Below, piece after piece: positions 6,313-56,597 of a stretch of DNA of 64,000 nt. A program made the position numbers and the translations under genes. The stretch comes from Akkermansia muciniphila. Its GTDB lineage: Bacteria > Verrucomicrobiota > Verrucomicrobiia > Opitutales > Opitutaceae. A model generated the notes under the pieces. The model saw only the letters and a list, made by a program, of their open reading frames with translations. It was not told the DNA's origin and searched no databases. The stretch covers positions 310,001-374,000 of the forward strand of contig CAMCZZ010000001.1 of assembly GCA_945888375.1 (NCBI GenBank), read 5' to 3'. Each line of letters begins with the position of its first letter. The first letter of the stretch is position 1.

Positions 6313-7110
6313 TCAGGCGCGGGCGAGGCGCCAGAAAGCCAGGCACTTCGCGAGCAGGGCTTCCAGTTCGTCGAGCGGCACCATGTTGGGGCCGTCGCTC
6401 AGCGCGTTGGCCGGGTCGGGGTGGGTCTCGATGAAGAGTCCGTCGGCGCCGGCCGCGAGGGCGGCGAAGCACAGGGTGGGCACGAACTCGCGCTGGCCGG
6501 AGCTTTTGCCGCCGCCGGCGCCGGGCAATTGCACGCTGTGAGTGGCGTCGAGGATGACGGGGTAACCGTTTCGCGCCATGATGGGGAAGCCCCGCATATC
6601 GACCACGAGGTTGTTGTAGCCGAAGGTGGCGCCTCGTTCGCATTGCCAGATCTCAGCTGCGCCGCCGTGGGCGAGTTTGCCGACGACGTGGACCATGTCG
6701 TTGGGCGACAGAAACTGGCCCTTTTTCACGTTCACGGTCCGGCCGGTGGCGGCGGCGGCTAGGAGCAGGTCGGTCTGGCGGCAGAGGTAGGCGGGAATCT
6801 GGAGCACGTCGCAAACCTCGGCCACGGGGGCGCACTGGGCGCTTTCATGGACGTCGGTGACGCAGGGCAGGCCGTAGTCGCGTTTCACGAGGGCGTGAAG
6901 GGCGAGGCCGGTTTCCAGCCCGGTGCCGCGGCCGCCGGCGATCGAGGTGCGGTTGGCTTTGTCGAACGAGCCCTTGAACACGAGGTTTAGCTCCGGGTGA
7001 CGCGTGCGCAGGGCGACGAGTTTCTCCGCCACGGCGCGGACCACGGTCTCGTTTTCCAGCGAGCAGGGGCCGGCGAGGACGAGCAATTTTGTGGGATCGA
7101 AGAGAGGCAT
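6313..7110 (-). CDS. kdsA: 3-deoxy-8-phosphooctulonate synthase (Kdo-8-P synthase)
   Basis: The enzyme condenses phosphoenolpyruvate with arabinose-5-phosphate for the Kdo of lipopolysaccharide. The 265 residues show [12 protein letters not shown] at the N-terminus, [12 protein letters not shown] near 45-56, [14 protein letters not shown] near 107, and [17 protein letters not shown] near 158-174. The Cys at residue 16 sits where metal-dependent KdsA enzymes carry their metal ligand and the E. coli type has Asn, so a metal-dependent enzyme is inferred. It lies 65 bases downstream of pyrG on the same strand, a pairing seen in many Gram-negatives. Confidence 0.96.
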
Positions 7111-48004: not shown

Positions 48005-48394
48005 TCAAGCCCCCGGCTCGCCGCCGCCGGCCAGCGGTTGCACCCGCACCGCCCACTCGGCCACAGGCATGCCGCCGACCACGTGTTCGCGCACGATACG
48101 TTCCACCCGCGCCGGGGTGGCCTCGCCATACCAGACGCCCTCGGGGTAAACCACCAGCCAGGGCCCGCCGGCGCAGACGCGCAGGCACTCGGCCTTCGAA
48201 CGGAGGGCGTCGGCACCAGGAAACTGGCAGGCGGTTTTCAACGCCGCCCAGGATTCCAAACCGGCAGCGCGGTCGCAGCACTCCGGGCCGGGACAGAGAA
48301 ACACGTGCCGGCGCGCGCCGGGCAGGCCCATTTTGGCGAAGGCGGCATCAATCTTGGTCGTCTCGGGCGGGCGCGCGGTCGGGGTCTGCTCCAT
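48005..48394 (-). CDS. Thioredoxin-like [2Fe-2S] ferredoxin
   Basis: The 129 residues contain [15 protein letters not shown] near 28-42 and [20 protein letters not shown] near 62-81. These give the first Cys plus the C-x3-C pair of thioredoxin-like [2Fe-2S] ferredoxins. The protein is cytosolic, with no signal peptide. The start ATG is at 48392-48394. It lies between the metal-transporter gene and the divergent secreted gene; it may supply electrons or bind metals. The exact role is not known. Confidence 0.8.
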
Positions 48395-48470
48395 GCGTGA
48401 CTTCTTGCGGCGGACGGCGGCGGACGCCACCTTTTCGTGGCGAATCCACTGCCCCGTCCACTTTCGCGTC

Positions 48471-49166
48471 ATGCGCTGCGCCCGGTTTTTACTGCTTATC
48501 CTTTTTCTCGCGGCCGTGTCCGGCTCGCGGGCGGAGGAGGTGCAGGCGCACGGCCTGATTTTCGAGCACTGGGTTTGTGACACTTTTTTCGGTGGCTACC
48601 GGCCGCCTGTTTACACCCAGAAGTGGGATATACCGGCGGCGGCGAATTCCGCGCACGGCGGGGTGCCGGCCAATCCCAAGGCGACCCGCTTCGGCACGCC
48701 GGTGGGACTGGGCGACGCGCTGCGGCAATACGACATCGAGGAGCCGTTTCTCCTCATTTTGGGCTATTGGGAGCAGGTCGCACCGACGGAGAAACGTTTC
48801 GTTAAACTCCTCGGGCTCCGCGTGGAGCCGGCGGCATGGCGTGGCTTGTGGGGGCCGGTTACCCGGGCTGATCTGGAGCGACTCGATGCGTTGATCAAAG
48901 ACCGCTCGCTCTCCCCGGTGGAAGCGCGGTTGCGTGCGCAGGAGCTAAAGACCCAGCTGCCGTTTTCCCGGGCCGTCTTTGTGCTCAATCCGAAGATCGA
49001 CGCCCAAGGGCAGCGGCGTCTTCAATGCAGTCTGCGCTTCGCGGATGTTCTCAAATACCTCGCACCCGAGGTCTCACCCGAACCGGAGACACATCCTGCG
49101 CTCTGGGGCGTGGCCTTCCCAGGCCCGGTGGTCTCCGGACCAAGGCGATTCGGGGAGGCGGAGTAA
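48471..49166 (+). CDS. Secreted protein of unknown function, possibly nuclease-related
   Basis: The 231 residues have a signal peptide ([20 protein letters not shown], cut after SRA). The middle part has [20 protein letters not shown] near 27-46, YTQKWDIP near 49-56, and [20 protein letters not shown] near 71-90. The order of conserved Glu, Asp and then a strand-turn-strand is compatible with a PD-(D/E)XK-like fold, but this is weak and no catalytic Lys is clear. The ATG at 48471 matches the signal peptide. It is divergent from the ferredoxin gene and borders the AT-rich island. Confidence 0.65.
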
Positions 49167-49310
49167 GATGTTTCGTTTGAAGACACTTTGCCCGACGACC
49201 GTGCATCGTTTTATTTGAGCTTATCCAGATAACGCCCCTTCTGAGTGCTCAACGAGCGCGCCCCGTTAGAAAGTAGGCCGAAGTGTGAATTTCATTTAGT
49301 TCTAAGTTTT

Positions 49311-49337
49311 TAACATTTCTCGGCCTGACCCCTTTTG
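49311..49337 (-). repeat. Boundary motif, left of the LRR unit (inverted)
   Basis: On the minus strand this reads as the GGGGTC-AGGCCGAGAAATG form of the shared motif, flanked by CAATCAAAA. It is oriented opposite to the copies at 51179-51276 on the right of the LRR gene. It lies 63 bases beyond the LRR stop codon. Confidence 0.8.
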
Positions 49338-49399
49338 ATTGTCGGCACGGTTTCTTCCTTATCTGCGTCTCATGTTATCAGCCCCCTTTTTATTGGCCG

Positions 49400-50914
49400 T
49401 TACTTTGCTTTTATGCGGACAAATAATTTATCAATTGGTAAAATATTTAGAGGCATAGACATTGGAGTGTAGACGGTCCAATTAACCAGATCGTCACTTT
49501 GTTCTATATTATAGTTTAGAATGAACCGGCCATCTTGCTGTCGGCTTAAAATAAGGTCGCCGATTGCCATATTATGAATTTGCGAAGCTGTAAACAAACT
49601 CCAAGTGTTTGGTGCTGAGATAACGCTGGCAATACCTGCCGTTTTGCCTTCGTTTACGATAGTAGTTAGTTCGCCTTTCGTAGCTAGGCTAGCAATTGTT
49701 GATGTTAATAGAGTATTAACACCAGTTTGGGTGGCTATTCCATAGTTTCCATTGGATGTAAGTATGGATTGCGAAAGATTCCTAATAAACGTAGCATTTG
49801 AAGATAGGGCATCTGCTATAGCTTCCACCATTGCTTTAGATGCAACCTGCGTCTTGAAGCCGATTAAATTTAGTGAAGCAATATATACTATTGGGATATT
49901 TAGGCTAGCTAAGTTTACGCAGTCCAAAAAGGCAGAGTTTCCGATATAAGTCACACTGTTTGGTATGGTGAGGGTAGTGAGGCTGGAGCAGCCTTGGTAT
50001 GATGAAATACCAATGGTAGTAACATTAGGGGGGAGCGTGATATCACCTAAACTAACGCAATCCTTAAATGCTGAATTACTTATAGTTGTAAATATTTCAG
50101 GATCTCCTACAGCGGGAATGCTAATAGGAATGGTGAATTTGCGTAAGCTTGAGCAATTTTGAAAAGCGGAAACACCAATAGTCTTCAGTTTGTTTGGGGT
50201 GTTTAAGTTGTTTAAATTTAGACAGTTATGGAAAGCAAAGTCACCTATGTCTCTTAATGTGTTCGGTAGCGTAATATTGGTTAACTTACCGCAGTCTTGG
50301 AAGGCATTGTTGCCTAAATATAATAAGTTACTTGGTAGGCCAACAGTTGTTAAACTACTACAGCCTTTAAATGCATTCCAACCGATGGTTTTTACGGAAT
50401 CAGGAATGCTAATGGTGAGTAGACTAGTGCAATTTTGAAATGCGTTGCCACCTATGTTAATTATGCTAGCTGGCAAGTTTACGCTAGTTAGACCACTACA
50501 ATTAATAAATGCACCATTCCATACTCCTGCTATTCCATTTTCGAGTGTGACTGTTGCGAGTTTTGTGCAGCCGTCAAATGTTGCCCAACCTACGTTTTTT
50601 ATAGTATTCGGAATGGTGATACTCGTTAGGTTGTTGCACCCTTGAAATGCATTGCTCGAGATATCAGTCACGCTAAACGGAAATGAAATGCTCACCACGT
50701 TGGAGGGTGTTGCAAATATGGGATTGTATTGAATCCCTACTTTAACAACAGGATAACCGTTCAGAATCTCGGGTATTGCTACTTGTCCTGTCGCTGTTGA
50801 TCTAGTAATTGTTGCGCCGCCATTTTCAACTAGGTAAGTCCAATGTCCACTTACTTGGGCTTTCGCAATTATTGTTGCCAGCAGGAAGAAAATTAAATTT
50901 ATCGAATTTTTCAC
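49400..50914 (-). CDS. Secreted BspA-type leucine-rich-repeat protein
   Basis: The 504 residues begin with a signal peptide (MKNSINLIFFLLATIIAKAQ). There are eleven LRR_5/BspA repeats of about 23 residues, each like NAFQNCTSLLTISIPDSVKT, from about 95 to 350, one of them with a longer insert. A less clear C-terminal region holds IEQSDDLVNWTVY near 474, a motif common in Verrucomicrobia secreted proteins. The gene is AT-rich compared with its neighbours and sits alone between inverted boundary motifs. BspA-like proteins bind surfaces or host factors in other bacteria; here the target is unknown. Confidence 0.88.
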   Translation of the reverse strand: MKNSINLIFFLLATIIAKAQVSGHWTYLVENGGATITRSTATGQVAIPEILNGYPVVKVGIQYNPIFATPSNVVSISFPFSVTDISSNAFQGCNNLTSITIPNTIKNVGWATFDGCTKLATVTLENGIAGVWNGAFINCSGLTSVNLPASIINIGGNAFQNCTSLLTISIPDSVKTIGWNAFKGCSSLTTVGLPSNLLYLGNNAFQDCGKLTNITLPNTLRDIGDFAFHNCLNLNNLNTPNKLKTIGVSAFQNCSSLRKFTIPISIPAVGDPEIFTTISNSAFKDCVSLGDITLPPNVTTIGISSYQGCSSLTTLTIPNSVTYIGNSAFLDCVNLASLNIPIVYIASLNLIGFKTQVASKAMVEAIADALSSNATFIRNLSQSILTSNGNYGIATQTGVNTLLTSTIASLATKGELTTIVNEGKTAGIASVISAPNTWSLFTASQIHNMAIGDLILSRQQDGRFILNYNIEQSDDLVNWTVYTPMSMPLNILPIDKLFVRIKAK

Positions 50915-51178
50915 GGCGTAAAATATTGTATATTATATTTATTTACTTCTTGCTTATTGGTAATTTGGAACTAAAATTATGTGCTTATCGCATGGCTTCT
51001 AACCGTAGAATTCTCAGGGGGAATGAACGCAACTATTGCATTTTGTATGGCTTTAATCACCTACTATGATTCATTGTCATTATCTGGCACTATCGCTGCA
51101 TTAATGTCTTTTAGAGTGATGTATCGTTAATCATGCTGGAAGTTTTGCATGCTTTGCAAGCAAATACGTAGCTGAAAT

Positions 51179-51276
51179 GGGGTCAGGTAAAATGATGGTC
51201 AGCTAAGGGCCAAATCAAAGGGGTCGGGCCGAGAAATGCTAAATTGGGGGTCTAGCCTATGGGGTCGGGCCGAGAA
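51179..51276 (+). repeat. Three GGGGTC motif cores with exact 41-nt spacing
   Basis: GGGGTC begins at 51179, 51220 and 51261, each 41 bases from the next. The second and third continue GGGCCGAGAA, the first diverges as AGGTAAAATG. The second lies in the 44-base repeat described separately. The exact spacing suggests a tandem array. Confidence 0.75.
51208..51251 (+). repeat. 44-base direct repeat, copy 1 (copy 2 at 52486)
   Basis: This stretch, beginning GGCCAAATCAAAGGGGTC and ending AAATTGGGGGT, is identical over 44 bases to 52486-52529. It lies right of the LRR unit. The two copies have the same orientation and enclose the LamG gene. Confidence 0.9.
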
Positions 51277-51416
51277 TCGTTGATTTTAGGCGGCATGTGA
51301 TAGTTCTGTTGCCTGGAGGATTTCAACCAACATTCCCGGGCAACTTGTTCCGTATATCCCTGTATCATAACAATCAACGGTTGCACGCTCACGAACACCT
51401 TTCAGGTCAACTTTTC

Positions 51417-51440
51417 AGCATTTCTCGCCAGACCCCTTTG
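51417..51440 (-). repeat. Boundary motif, left of the LamG unit (inverted)
   Basis: On the minus strand it reads CAAAGGGGTCTGGCGAGAAATGCT, a one-base-deleted form of the shared motif. It faces opposite to the copy at 52486 on the right of the LamG gene, which starts 37 bases away at the stop. Confidence 0.75.
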
Positions 51441-51477
51441 GCTTGGTCGTCCAGACACCACTTACCTTTACAATGTT

Positions 51478-52203
51478 TCACTTGACTCGCTTTCTTCTCT
51501 TGATCGACAGAAACAGGGAAAAAGCGCCGATTATTGACGTAGAGGAGGATGGCTCCGGAATGGTTATAAGTGCAGATACTTCGCCAGATGACAACGAGCG
51601 ATTGTATATCCTAACGTCATCCATGGTAAGTCCATTCATCCCAAATCCCCAATCACTATTCCCGCTGAACCCCTCTGGCGCAACGCCTGAAATAACCTCA
51701 TACCCATCAATATATATTCTCCTCACGCCTGCGACTGCCTCATATGTTGCCGCAATATGATACCATATGGATGTGGCTTGTGGGGGTGCAGCAGTGTAAT
51801 CAAGGTCATTATAGAAAAACGAGAATCTAACATCATTAGGATAATCAATGGCAATAGCCGTAGATTTTCCACTAGCGCTCTCGGAACCAATGCCAAGCGC
51901 CCAAGTGTCAATAGGATCGAACGCTTTTAAATACCAGAAGGCTATCGTCATTGAACTACCGGTAAGATTGATGCCGGTTCCCGTAACTGGAGGGAACATA
52001 TCGGTGCAAGAGAGTGCAGAAGAGGCGACATTGAATCTATCTGCTACATACGTGGAACTTCCAGCGAATGAACCGTGGTGCCCGTTTCCACTTGAATCGA
52101 GGACGTTTCCATTGAGTTCAAAGTGTGCCACAAGCCCAGTCGTGATGTCCTGAGCCGACAAAGTAGATGCAACGAATAATATCGTGGTAATGAATTTTTT
52201 CAT
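51478..52203 (-). CDS. Secreted LamG-domain protein with PEP-CTERM-like tail
   Basis: The 241 residues have a signal peptide (MKKFITTILFVASTLSAQ), then a LamG/concanavalin-like domain (about 20-205) starting GLVAHFELNGNVLDSSGNGH and holding IAATYEAVAGVRRIYIDGYE near 152-171. The end, IPEPSSSTSIIGAFSLFLSI followed by KRRKR, is a PEP-CTERM-like sorting tail: the PEP motif, one hydrophobic span and a basic end. The gene is AT-richer than its surroundings and lies alone between inverted motif copies. Confidence 0.87.
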   Translation of the reverse strand: MKKFITTILFVASTLSAQDITTGLVAHFELNGNVLDSSGNGHHGSFAGSSTYVADRFNVASSALSCTDMFPPVTGTGINLTGSSMTIAFWYLKAFDPIDTWALGIGSESASGKSTAIAIDYPNDVRFSFFYNDLDYTAAPPQATSIWYHIAATYEAVAGVRRIYIDGYEVISGVAPEGFSGNSDWGFGMNGLTMDDVRIYNRSLSSGEVSALITIPEPSSSTSIIGAFSLFLSIKRRKRVK

Positions 52204-52677
52204 ATTTTCTCTCCCTAAGGTTGTGTAGTTAGTTTAAGGTTGTAGATCGCGTCTCGAAGAATCCTGTTAGTGAGGAGTTTAGGCTTCCCCAGCGAAATTG
52301 GTTAGGCGGGCCGCAAAGGGTATTAAATCCCCAAAAAGGATTGTTCCGAAGCTGATCTATTGAACCGCTGCACCCCTAATCACCCCGAAGGCCGCCGACG
52401 AGGTCGTGCTAATCAGATGCATGCTTTGCATGTCTTTTCCAAGACAGCTTTTTTGCGAATGTCGAAGCCAAAAATTTGCGGCAGCGGCCAAATCAAAGGG
52501 GTCGGGCCGAGAAATGCTAAATTGGGGGTTGCCGACTTGGATTTTGAGGGAAGTTCCTTTGGCAAAACTTGGCGGGCAAGCTATGTATTTTGTTCGAAAT
52601 ACGGCACATGGGTGTGGCCGGTTTTTGTTAGTTTAAAACCAGCTACTGAAGCGAAGTAACCCCTTGGGGCTGCTGTT
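52204..52677. other. 474-base intergenic region after the LamG gene
   Basis: AT-rich text with copy 2 of the 44-base repeat (52486-52529), the palindrome CATGCTTTGCATG (52420-52432) beside TGTCTTTTCCAAGACA (52431-52446), and a plus-strand open frame (52360-52659) judged non-coding. GC content rises again from about 52680. Confidence 0.6.
52486..52529 (+). repeat. 44-base direct repeat, copy 2
   Basis: Identical to 51208-51251 and right of the LamG unit. It carries the core GGGGTC at 52498. Only one core is present here, unlike the three at 51179-51276. Confidence 0.9.
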
Positions 52678-54177
52678 TTATGCGGCGGCGGGCTCGACGC
52701 CGGCCATGAGGCGCATGAGGGCGGTTTCGCTGAAGTCGGTGCGGGGGACCTCGCCGGCGAGGCGGCCGGCGCGGAGCACGAGGATGCGGGTGCAGAGGCC
52801 GAGCAGCTCGGGCAGTTCGGACGACACGACGAGCAGGGCTTTGCCTTCGCAGGCGAGCTCGTCGAGGAGCGCGTAGATCTCGGCCTTGGCGCCGACGTCC
52901 ACGCCGCGGGTGGGCTCGTCGATCAGCAAGATGTCGCAGTCGCGGGCCAGCCATTTGGCCAGGGCGATCTTCTGCTGGTTGCCGCCGGAGAGGCCGCCGA
53001 CGATCGTTTCGAGGGAAGGGGCTTTGACGCGGAGGCGTTTTTGGTAGCGGTCGGCCAGCGAACGTTCGAGGCCGCGGCGCACCCAGCCGAGGCGGGACAG
53101 GACGGGGAGCGAGGCGAGGGCGGTGTTTTCGCGGCAGTTGAGACCGAGGACGAGGCCCTGGCGTTTGCGGTCTTCGGGCAGGAGGCCGAGGCGGGCGGCG
53201 AGGGCGGCTTCGATGGAGCGGGGGGCGATCGGGCGGTCATTGACCAAGACCCGCCCGGTGGCGGCGGGGTCGAGGCCGAAGGCGGCTTGCACGGTCTCGC
53301 TGCGGCCGGCGCCGACTAGGCCGGCGAGGCCGACGATCTCGCCGGCGCGCACGCTGAGGGTGATGTCGGAAAACTTGCCGGGGGAGCTGAGCGCTTCGAG
53401 CCGGAGGCGTTCGCGGCCGGCGGGGCGGGCGAGGTGAGCCGGGGTTTGGGCGCGGAGTTCGCGGCCGATCATCTGCGAGACGACGCGGGCGGGGGTGGTG
53501 GCGGGGATGGCCTCGGTGGCGACGTGGCGGCCGTCGCGCAGGACGGTGATGTGGTCGCACAGCTCGAAGAGTTCCGACATGCGGTGCGAAACGTATATAA
53601 GGGTGAGGCCGCGGGCTTTGAGTTTACGGACAAGGGTGAACAACTCGCGCGTCTCGCCGGCGGAGAGGGAGCTGGAGGGCTCGTCCATGACGATGACTTG
53701 CGCGCCGGTGCCGACGGCGGCGGCGATCTGGACAAGTTGTTCTTTGCCGGTGGAGAGGGTGCCGATGAGGGCGTCGGGATCGATGTCGGCGTGGATGGAG
53801 GCGAGCATCTCGCGGGCGCGGGCGCGAAGGGCGGGGCGGTCCACAAAGCCGCCGGCGCGGAGGGGGAGGTCGCCGAGGCAGAGGTTCTCAGCGACCGACA
53901 TATTGGGGCAGAAGGCGAGTTCCTGGTGCACCATGGCGATGCCGAGCGCGCGGGCGGCGAGGGGATCGGCGGGCGCGATGGGTTTGCCGTCCAACCGCAT
54001 CTCGCCGGCGTCGGCGGTGTAGACGCCGGCGAGGATCTTGCCGAGGGTGCTCTTGCCGGCGCCGTTCTCGCCGATGAGGGCGTGGCAGGTGCCACGCGGG
54101 ATGGCGAACGAGACCCCGTCGAGCGCGAGCACGCCGGGGAAACGTTTGGTGATGGATTGGAACTCGAGGTGGGCCAC
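52678..54177 (-). CDS. Sugar ABC transporter ATP-binding protein (RbsA/MglA type)
   Basis: The 499-residue protein has two nucleotide-binding domains. The first has Walker A GENGAGKSTLGKIL near 36-49. The signature is IGTLSTGKEQLVQIAAAVGT near 132-151, and Walker B is VIVMDEPSSSLSAGE near 154-168. The second domain's Walker A is degenerate (AGLVGAGRSETVQAAFG), as in RbsA and MglA. The start is the GTG at 54175-54177, which begins at the conserved HLEFQSITKRF. It is last of a three-gene operon, 19 bases after the binding-protein gene. The sugar is not known. Confidence 0.93.
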   Translation of the reverse strand: MAHLEFQSITKRFPGVLALDGVSFAIPRGTCHALIGENGAGKSTLGKILAGVYTADAGEMRLDGKPIAPADPLAARALGIAMVHQELAFCPNMSVAENLCLGDLPLRAGGFVDRPALRARAREMLASIHADIDPDALIGTLSTGKEQLVQIAAAVGTGAQVIVMDEPSSSLSAGETRELFTLVRKLKARGLTLIYVSHRMSELFELCDHITVLRDGRHVATEAIPATTPARVVSQMIGRELRAQTPAHLARPAGRERLRLEALSSPGKFSDITLSVRAGEIVGLAGLVGAGRSETVQAAFGLDPAATGRVLVNDRPIAPRSIEAALAARLGLLPEDRKRQGLVLGLNCRENTALASLPVLSRLGWVRRGLERSLADRYQKRLRVKAPSLETIVGGLSGGNQQKIALAKWLARDCDILLIDEPTRGVDVGAKAEIYALLDELACEGKALLVVSSELPELLGLCTRILVLRAGRLAGEVPRTDFSETALMRLMAGVEPAAA

Positions 54178-54196
54178 GAAAGGCGGGGTAGCGGGT

Positions 54197-55165
54197 TTAG
54201 CGCTTGGGCAGCCAGGTTTCCCAGTTCTTGGCGAAGGCATCCACGGTGTCCTTGGTGACGGGGATGAGGGCGCTCACGTCCACGACGGCGGCGGGATCCT
54301 TTTTTAGGACGATCTTGTTGATGAGGTGTTCCACGGAGCGGTAGCCCCACTGGTAGCACTGCTGGGCGAGGAGGACGGGGACGTGGCCGGAGCGGATATA
54401 GGCGAGCTGGGCGGGCAGGGCGTCCACGGAGACGCACTGGACGGTGCCGGGGGCCCACTTCAGGGCGTTCTCGGTGAAGAGGGGCCAGCCGCCGATCATG
54501 GCCCAGCCGGTGATGTCGGGATTGGCCTGCATGACCTGCTCGACCTTCGCGGCGGAGTCCTGCGGGGTCTCCTTGTGGTAGTAGACGTCGCGGATGGTGA
54601 GGCCGGGGTGTTTTTTGGCTTCTTCGCGGGCGCCCTGGACGCGTTTCTGGAGGTTGGGGGCGGTCTGGTTGCCGGCGAGGATGGCGACGACGCCCTGGCC
54701 GTGCATGACCTTGGCGAGTTCAGCCATGGTCTGGCGGCCGCACTCGAGGTCGTCCACGCCGTAGGTCACGAAGCGTTTGGAGGCGGGGGCGTCGGAATCG
54801 AAGGTGGCGACGGGCACGCCGTTCTCGACGGCGCGGTCGATGGTGGCGGTGAGTTTATTGGCGTCGGTGCAGGAGACGGCGATGCCCTCGGCGCCGGCGA
54901 GGACGAGTTGCTCGATGGCCTCGGCTTGTTTCTGGGCGTCTTCCTCGTTGGGGGTGCGCCAGTCGATCTTGATCTTCAGGCCGTGCTGTTGGCCGAGGGC
55001 CTTGGCGGCGTCTTCGGCGCCGACGCGGGCGGCCTGGAAGACGGGGTTGCCTTGGGACTTGGCGACCAGGCCGAGGGTGAGCTCACGCTCGGCGCGGGCG
55101 GGCAGGGCGAGGGCGGCGGCGGCGAGCAGGCCGGCCGCGAGTTGGAGGAGGTGGGTGGTTTTCAT
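54197..55165 (-). CDS. Periplasmic sugar-binding protein of the ABC transporter
   Basis: The 322 residues start with a signal peptide (MKTTHLLQLAAGLLAAAALA, cut after ARA). The type I periplasmic-binding fold of the RbsB family is indicated by LTLGLVAKSQGNPVFQAARV near 29-48, GIAVSCTDANKLTATIDRAV near 92-111, and VPVATFDSDAPASKRFVTYG near 115-134. The sugar is not known. It lies between the permease gene (41 bases upstream) and the ATPase gene (19 bases downstream) on the same strand. Confidence 0.9.
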   Translation of the reverse strand: MKTTHLLQLAAGLLAAAALALPARAERELTLGLVAKSQGNPVFQAARVGAEDAAKALGQQHGLKIKIDWRTPNEEDAQKQAEAIEQLVLAGAEGIAVSCTDANKLTATIDRAVENGVPVATFDSDAPASKRFVTYGVDDLECGRQTMAELAKVMHGQGVVAILAGNQTAPNLQKRVQGAREEAKKHPGLTIRDVYYHKETPQDSAAKVEQVMQANPDITGWAMIGGWPLFTENALKWAPGTVQCVSVDALPAQLAYIRSGHVPVLLAQQCYQWGYRSVEHLINKIVLKKDPAAVVDVSALIPVTKDTVDAFAKNWETWLPKR

Positions 55166-56313: not shown

Positions 56314-56388
56314 GCGAGCGAGGAGGATTCTACCGAAGGTGTCTGGCCGCGAAAGGCAAAGATAGTTTACCGGAGCCGGCAGCATTCT

Positions 56389-56570
56389 GTTGCCCGGGTC
56401 GCGTCGAGGCGACTTAGCGGCGTCTTTCGACGGGGCCCGCGCTCGAAATACTCTTCGAGTATTGTCCGCCCTGCGGGCTCACCCTCCGTCTTCGGCTCCG
56501 TCCTTTACCCGGTCCGCACCGAAATGTGCTGGCCCCCTCGCCACGCTGCACCGCCGTCCAACTGCATGAT
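56389..56570 (+). repeat. Dispersed intergenic repeat, copy B (longer form)
   Basis: The first part (56389-56445) matches copy A at 24653-24709. The end GCCGTCCAACTGC (56553-56565) matches 24717-24729. Between them copy B has about 100 extra bases, including a hairpin AATACTC/GAGTATT at 56447-56463. Both copies lie in intergenic DNA and read the same way. Confidence 0.6.
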
Positions 56571-56597
56571 CGAGGCTCTATCCTGAAGGGGCCTGGC

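Follow-up and report, generated by a model that had tools for sequence, protein, structure and literature searches.

An AT-rich island and its repeated motif

The window, a stretch of 64,000 nucleotides (C1:310001-374000) from a 3.22-Mb Verrucomicrobia genome (G000; family Opitutaceae, as judged here), contains an AT-rich island of 3.5 kb in which a short motif recurs around two genes. The island lies between two native genes that are not part of it, one at 48333-49166 (plus strand) on the left and a sugar ABC transporter ATPase gene at 52678-54240 (minus strand) on the right. Its local GC content is 0.38-0.46, versus about 0.67 in the surrounding DNA. Both island genes are on the minus strand and code for secreted proteins. 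The first (49400-50914; GC 0.40) encodes an LRR_5 (BspA-type) protein of 504 amino acids (Pfam LRR_5, E 3.5e-80) and is the sole full LRR_5 gene in the genome. The second (51478-52203; GC 0.46) encodes a LamG protein of 241 amino acids (Laminin_G_3, E 1.1e-13). Judged by eye, the N-termini of both proteins resemble signal peptides and the LamG protein ends in a PEP-CTERM-like tail. An earlier note on this DNA had described the shared strand, low GC content and secretion of the two gene products in the same way.

The motif that the earlier note described as common to both genes is real. The sequence GGGGTCGGGCCGAGAAATG occurs in the window at 51220(+) and 52498(+), with one mismatch at 49314-49332(-) and with two at 51261(+); these four matches at up to three mismatches compare with 0.08 expected from shuffled sequences. 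Exact copies of GGGGTCRGGCCGAGAA number seven in the 3.22-Mb genome, four in the island and three at C5:134009-136392. Alignment of 181 unique sites defined a motif of about 41 nt, GGCCAAGCCAAA-GGGGTCNGGCCG-AGAAATGTTAATTTT, conserved from -14 to +26 relative to the first G of GGGG. The core GGGGTCNGGCCG is constant, and the next 12 or so bases differ by subtype. A weight matrix covering these 41 nt scored 50.7 at 49332(-), 47.8 at 51220(+), 48.6 at 51261(+) and 47.8 at 52498(+). Across 863 kb of loci it detected 190 sites, whereas shuffled sequence gave none, which rules out a chance origin. The whole 3.2-Mb genome holds 12 motif sites. Direct repeats of a weak variant, GGGGTCGCTCC, on contig C2 lie within a GC-rich duplication and were not considered further.

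At the left edge of the LRR segment, a subtype A motif (49309-49346, minus strand, GGGG at 49332) points its GGGG towards the LRR gene. Two identical subtype A copies follow on the plus strand at 51208-51251 and 52486-52529, forming a perfect 44-nt direct repeat (GGCCAAATCAAAGGGG...TTGGGGGT) outside which the sequences diverge. The LRR gene lies between 49332(-) and 51220(+). The direct copies flank the LamG gene together with an element resembling a miniature inverted-repeat transposable element (MITE; 51249-51446, plus strand), whose inverted ends at 51261(+) and 51436(-) have GGGG outermost. The right end is damaged by the loss of one base (GGCGAG for GGCCGAG) and scored 8.1. Copies of this MITE, which is about 190-195 bp long, were found at 97% identity in the same genome (L009:3999-4197), adjoining the transposase gene described below, at 95% in the sister genome G044 (L040) and, twice more, at 77-79% (L051 and L052). 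On the ABC-transporter side of this hot spot, a degenerate subtype B copy (GGGTGTGGCCGGTTTTTGTTAGTTT; 52599-52635, plus strand) scored 13.4 at 52609(+). G044 has an intact copy at the orthologous place (L041:7225), and a related copy is present in genome G150 (L111:11298).

This arrangement agrees in part with the earlier note, which had drawn two independent units, each with one gene between inverted motifs. The LRR gene does lie between inverted copies, but the left motif assigned to LamG (51417-51440, minus strand) is one end of the MITE. The motifs at 51179 and 51261, taken as the right end of the LRR unit, also had to be reassigned: the first is merely GGGGTCAGG and the second is the other MITE end. 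Since one motif pair consists of MITE ends, two independent two-ended units as first drawn were rejected. GGGG faces both the LRR and the LamG gene, the reverse of the orientation in the MITE and in the transposase element, and both genes lie outside the element tips.

Two other features of the window were recorded. The sequence TGCATGCTTTGCA occurs at 51146-51158 and 52418-52430, about 215-230 bp upstream of the LRR and LamG genes respectively and 62-68 bp ahead of each A(+) motif copy; G044 has tandem repeats of it close to a motif (L234:7304-7334). A further weak motif is located at 56338(+), and synteny with G044 is broken just beside it (56372-56583 differ), which marks a second small variable spot.

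The transposase and its terminal inverted repeats

The earlier note had seen no transposase in the window and suggested an enzyme encoded elsewhere, correctly on both counts. The single Y1_Tnp (IS200/RAYT-like) gene of the genome (C5:135441-136373; 49.8 bits) is on another contig, tightly enclosed by inverted motif copies with GGGG outermost (L009:5373-5399 and 6369-6395). The protein has 310 amino acids and carries the catalytic HYH (60-62) and Y119-I-H-L-N-P124 motifs; H60, H62, Y119, N123 and P124 are invariant in eight relatives. The best match of its fold in the PDB is E. coli TnpA-REP/RAYT (4er8), and IS608 was matched also. The C-terminal extension is predicted to be helical from residue 231 on (pLDDT 65-94), and no Pfam helix-turn-helix (HTH) match was found in it up to E 5. 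The NCBIfam model REP_Tyr_transpos gave 73.7 bits, below its cut-off of 80. The enzyme is REP-transposase-like (REP, repetitive extragenic palindromic), which bears out the link made in the earlier note between GGGGTC text and REP-associated transposases; nothing joining GGGGTC with REP and transposase was found in the literature.

Both ends of the transposase element carry GGGGTCAG, and similar ends (GGGGTCNG) are found in other elements of the genus. Terminal inverted repeats (TIRs) of the GGGGTCAG type also occur in most of the Verrucomicrobia and Kiritimatiellae relatives that were scanned (Chthoniobacterales, Spartobacteria, Pontiella and Kiritimatiellae). Ten full elements with matched inverted ends were identified in the genus. 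The inner part of the TIR differs between transposases, is alike at both ends of one element and tracks protein distance (Mantel rho 0.40, p 0.01). The ends of a second enzyme in G044 (GGGGTCTGGCCGATTTTTGTTAGTTTT), for example, are of subtype B and recur as solitary copies in that genome. Eight sites folded as single-stranded DNA formed no hairpin (z -1.0 to +1.0). A REP hairpin element was ruled out, as the motif has no such fold and its tag is GGGGTC, not GTAG. TIRYT/TIRtron elements are described by Di Nocera (2013; PMC3733652) as having GGGGWSAS terminal inverted repeats, and the TIRs found here fit that description. The transposase is a TIRYT, one of the RAYT family of Y1 enzymes that act on single-stranded DNA, and the motif is its terminal inverted repeat.

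Variants of the element occur in two other genomes. In G075 (IMCC26134), three tandem transposase copies are present at L105:7144-9835 (C1:723144-725835) with their motifs spaced 836 bp apart. The two extra copies, which are nearly identical, correspond to residues 1-251 only, as though a unit bounded by motifs had been duplicated. In G150, the first 43-45 transposase codons alone remain beside motifs (L111:1383-1593 and L110:1328-1529); these remnants are internal deletion derivatives on the way to MITEs.

Side preference and break points at the motif

The motif was compared across 15 genomes of the genus, mostly metagenome assemblies with contig ends in repeats. The loci were picked for holding motifs, so the statistics address polarity and not overall abundance. 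Neither condition that the earlier note gave for refuting its reading holds: the motif is not confined to this island or scattered at random, and in relatives it tends to bracket AT-rich genes. Among 51 non-redundant neighbouring pairs 350-5000 bp apart that do not enclose a transposase, 20 have GGGG inward, one has GGGG outward and 30 are direct (sign test 2e-5); 11 of the 12 members of the outward class are transposase elements. The mean GC content of inward-GGGG spans is 0.523, versus 0.591 for direct spans (p 0.0017). At solitary motifs (58 independent clusters), the 400 bp on the GGGG side are AT-richer than the inner 400 bp in 45 of 56 cases (45:11, p 5e-6). This bias persists at 800 and 1200 bp, and its majority direction is the same in each of the seven genomes counted. 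Windows with GC below 0.50 make up 23% of outer flanks, 5% of inner flanks and 1% of the background. Foreign AT-rich DNA in the genus is preferentially on the outer (GGGG) side of scattered motif copies.

Inward-GGGG brackets could be explained if each gene and its inverted motif pair were a non-autonomous two-ended cassette, moved by a RAYT/TIRYT encoded elsewhere, as the earlier note proposed. The distant enzyme has been found, it is itself motif-bracketed and the motif is its own end. A full LRR_5 gene of this kind is present in only three genomes of the genus, one in each, and all three are bracketed by inward GGGG at two chromosomal sites, the G075 gene being at a different locus. Some brackets are also matched, with a similarity of 0.92 each for the LRR gene (A-A), a lipoprotein gene of G044 (B-B) and a three-gene span of G153. 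However, the ends are oriented opposite to those of the transposase element, and on average the two motifs of a bracket are no more alike (0.63) than random pairs from the same genome (0.61), versus 0.92 for transposase ends; matched ends were rejected as a general rule. The left motif of LamG is a MITE end, and no empty site with a clean two-ended excision was found, nor was an empty LRR site seen in the genomes compared. Twelve of the 21 inward-GGGG brackets are formed by motifs that both stand outside any complete element, so a gene merely caught between two complete MITEs was ruled out for most brackets. Simple two-ended cassettes are disfavoured because matched ends are generally lacking, and this explanation is considered unlikely. 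As a rule, the genes so flanked do not form matched two-ended transposons.

Species differ in gene content, with breaks at the outer edge of the motif. On the inner side, the ends of homology blocks cluster at -15 to +7, with none between -150 and -20; a second group on that side, at +60 to +100, marks where homology in the transposase coding region begins. Five block ends on the outer side fall at -12 to -14. At the same chromosomal site in G044, identity to the window in the left flank (98%) ends at 49346, where the left motif has its outer edge. The site retains both motifs around a different LRR gene, which spans a contig break; after the A(+) motif come a B(+) motif and the ABC gene, and the MITE and LamG are missing. 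LamG has no match anywhere in G044. At the MITE/LamG join, G044 has one motif copy in place of two, and the flanking bases differ. The LRR protein of G044 is 83% identical to that of G075 and only 49% identical (C-terminal region) to that of G000, although G000 and G044 are closely related: their transposases are 99% identical, versus 73% for those of G000 and G075. The LRR gene tree therefore conflicts with kinship.

Content also changes at other junctions. Beyond the left tip of the transposase element, where synteny among G000, G044 and G150 ends at the tips, G000 has a PEP-CTERM gene. The same place in G044 holds an IS481 fragment, a B-bracketed AT-rich lipoprotein-like gene and a truncated gene remnant, and G150 has the full-length form of that remnant (747 amino acids, GH2-like by eye). 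G044 and G075 share, at different loci, a beta-helix gene (549 amino acids) together with one motif at 98% identity, and both ends of the shared unit are at motif edges. In G044, a 567-bp piece made up of the 3' end of the left-neighbour gene, intergenic DNA and an A(-) motif is present twice, the second copy being fused to a B(-) motif. The piece on contig C22 (L042:825-1403) is 98% identical to the window, and the native copy of that gene end in G044 is 88% identical. From these identities it looks like a transfer from a G000-like donor with captured flank.

Several further sites were noted in the same comparison. A solitary B motif in G044 has, on its GGGG side, an AT-rich gene pair (GC 0.41-0.43; contig C18, L236:656-3538), of which one gene encodes an Eco57I-type restriction-modification methylase. 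A 4.35-kb segment of G000 (contig C7, L049:9740-14091) is 99.5% identical to one in G135 (contig C97, L228:1-4352), a distant member of the genus, and the identity stops at the outer edge of a motif; this is either a recent transfer or a wrongly binned contig. An end sequence of about 50 bp, CCTACG...CTGTCACCTAGGTCTCCGGATCATACC, recurs at several junctions (L109:9775-9830, L042:1440-1530, L234:3425-3475, L242:7860-7920 and L244:8625-8680) and apparently belongs to an IS481-type element, full copies of which are in L108.

Breaks at motif edges would also be expected if the motifs were dispersed short repeats that the transposase only spread and that serve as anchors for homologous or short-homology recombination, for example after DNA uptake. 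A length of about 41-44 nt is enough for some homologous exchange, direct repeats surround the MITE and LamG, and repeats border 10-18% of variable segments in other species (PMC2884548). The fixed polarity at solitary motifs and the 20 inward versus one outward pairs are left unexplained, and unmatched bracket subtypes share little past GGGGTCNGGCCG, so that recombination of this kind is also judged improbable. Least probable of all is coincidence, whereby AT-rich foreign genes and insertion elements both gather in permissive intergenic hot spots: IS481 remnants and MITEs do share these spots, and inner flanks are somewhat AT-richer than the background (GC 0.612 versus 0.641), but neither the 45:11 side preference, the breaks exactly at the outer edge, the brackets around all three full LRR genes at two sites, nor the 12 of 21 brackets lacking a motif in a complete element would be predicted. 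Polarity disfavours plain homologous recombination and coincidence alike.

Proposed role of the repeats and comparison with known systems

There is about an even chance, on the comparative evidence above, that foreign DNA attaches at TIRYT tips in a polar way and that solitary tips gather and swap genes. The enzyme would cut or nick single-stranded motif copies, and other DNA would be joined to the outer edge of the motif by one-ended or aberrant strand transfer. Each stray tip might then become a polar attachment point at which genes accumulate and are exchanged. The LRR gene would be the content of a span between two facing tips, and LamG with the MITE a later insertion beside a tip, accompanied by a second 44-nt motif copy. 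A one-ended TIRYT product is plausible because E. coli TnpA-REP cuts either side of REP and rejoins (PMC8266576).

Several points weigh against such attachment. The inference is wholly comparative, drawn mostly from metagenome-assembled genomes, and no movement was observed. Some outer flanks are not AT-rich, and one outward-GGGG pair and many direct pairs mean that the rule is not absolute. Some junctions are at the inner edge (+14 to +38) and not at the outer one, and the gene of the beta-helix unit is on the inner side of its motif. IS481 remnants at several of the same junctions indicate that other elements also shape the hot spots. Outside the genus, polarity was not established with short TIR queries (16:10, mostly noise).

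A wider proposal is more doubtful and is offered tentatively: a TIRYT-driven gene-exchange system in which dispersed TIRs would serve as polar single-strand attachment sites, adding and swapping whole foreign genes between species (LRR, LamG, PEP-CTERM, beta-helix and restriction-modification) in an integron-like role. RAYT and TIRYT enzymes are widespread and mostly of low copy number; tnpA-REP is found in about 25% of species (Quentin, 2018; PMC6006769). The polar association with foreign genes suggests that the enzyme may help bacteria to gain and swap genes. If true, the side preference at its end repeats would give RAYT/TIRYT a concrete role in gene acquisition and would allow recently acquired genes in these genomes to be found by a simple sequence rule. 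Such a role would be testable in IMCC26134, a member of the genus that has been isolated and completely sequenced.

Among known systems, TIRYT/TIRtron, which Quentin (2018; PMC6006769) equates with TnpA-Y1 subclass 2.1 and RAYT group 1, is the closest. These elements share with those studied here a Y1 HUH transposase of about 310 amino acids, a C-terminal extension and a low copy number. Also shared are long inverted repeats with GGGGWSAS (GGGGTCAG here), the lack of a REP hairpin and the occurrence of solitary or grouped copies. In TIRYT enzymes the C-terminal extension is of the helix-turn-helix kind; the one here is predicted to be helical and gave no Pfam HTH match. The excerpted texts of PMC3733652 and PMC6006769 contain no report of side-fixed foreign genes at solitary TIRs, of swaps at TIR edges or of MITEs of about 190 bp. 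The transposase and TIR are thus of a known kind, and their polar association with exchanged foreign genes is apparently unreported.

REPtrons and REPINs with their RAYT (Nunvar, 2010, PMC2817692; Bertels and Rainey, 2011, PMC3116915) also have a cognate transposase, short non-autonomous copies and inverted pairs whose conserved 5' tag lies outermost. In contrast, the system described here has no GTAG tag and no stable hairpin, about 10-20 copies per genome and not hundreds, and attached foreign genes. One-ended transposition of IS91/ISCR elements involves a Y2 rolling-circle transposase and foreign DNA beyond one defined element tip. The outcome is alike, with foreign DNA beyond one tip, but the enzyme here is Y1 and not Y2 rolling-circle, and ori and ter ends were not seen. 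In integron cassettes, single genes are separated by recombination sites, which are handled in single-stranded form and at whose defined edges exchange takes place. The elements of this genus differ in having no tyrosine-recombinase integrase, no attC fold and sites that face either way; the likeness lies in single genes placed between sites and exchanged at defined edges.

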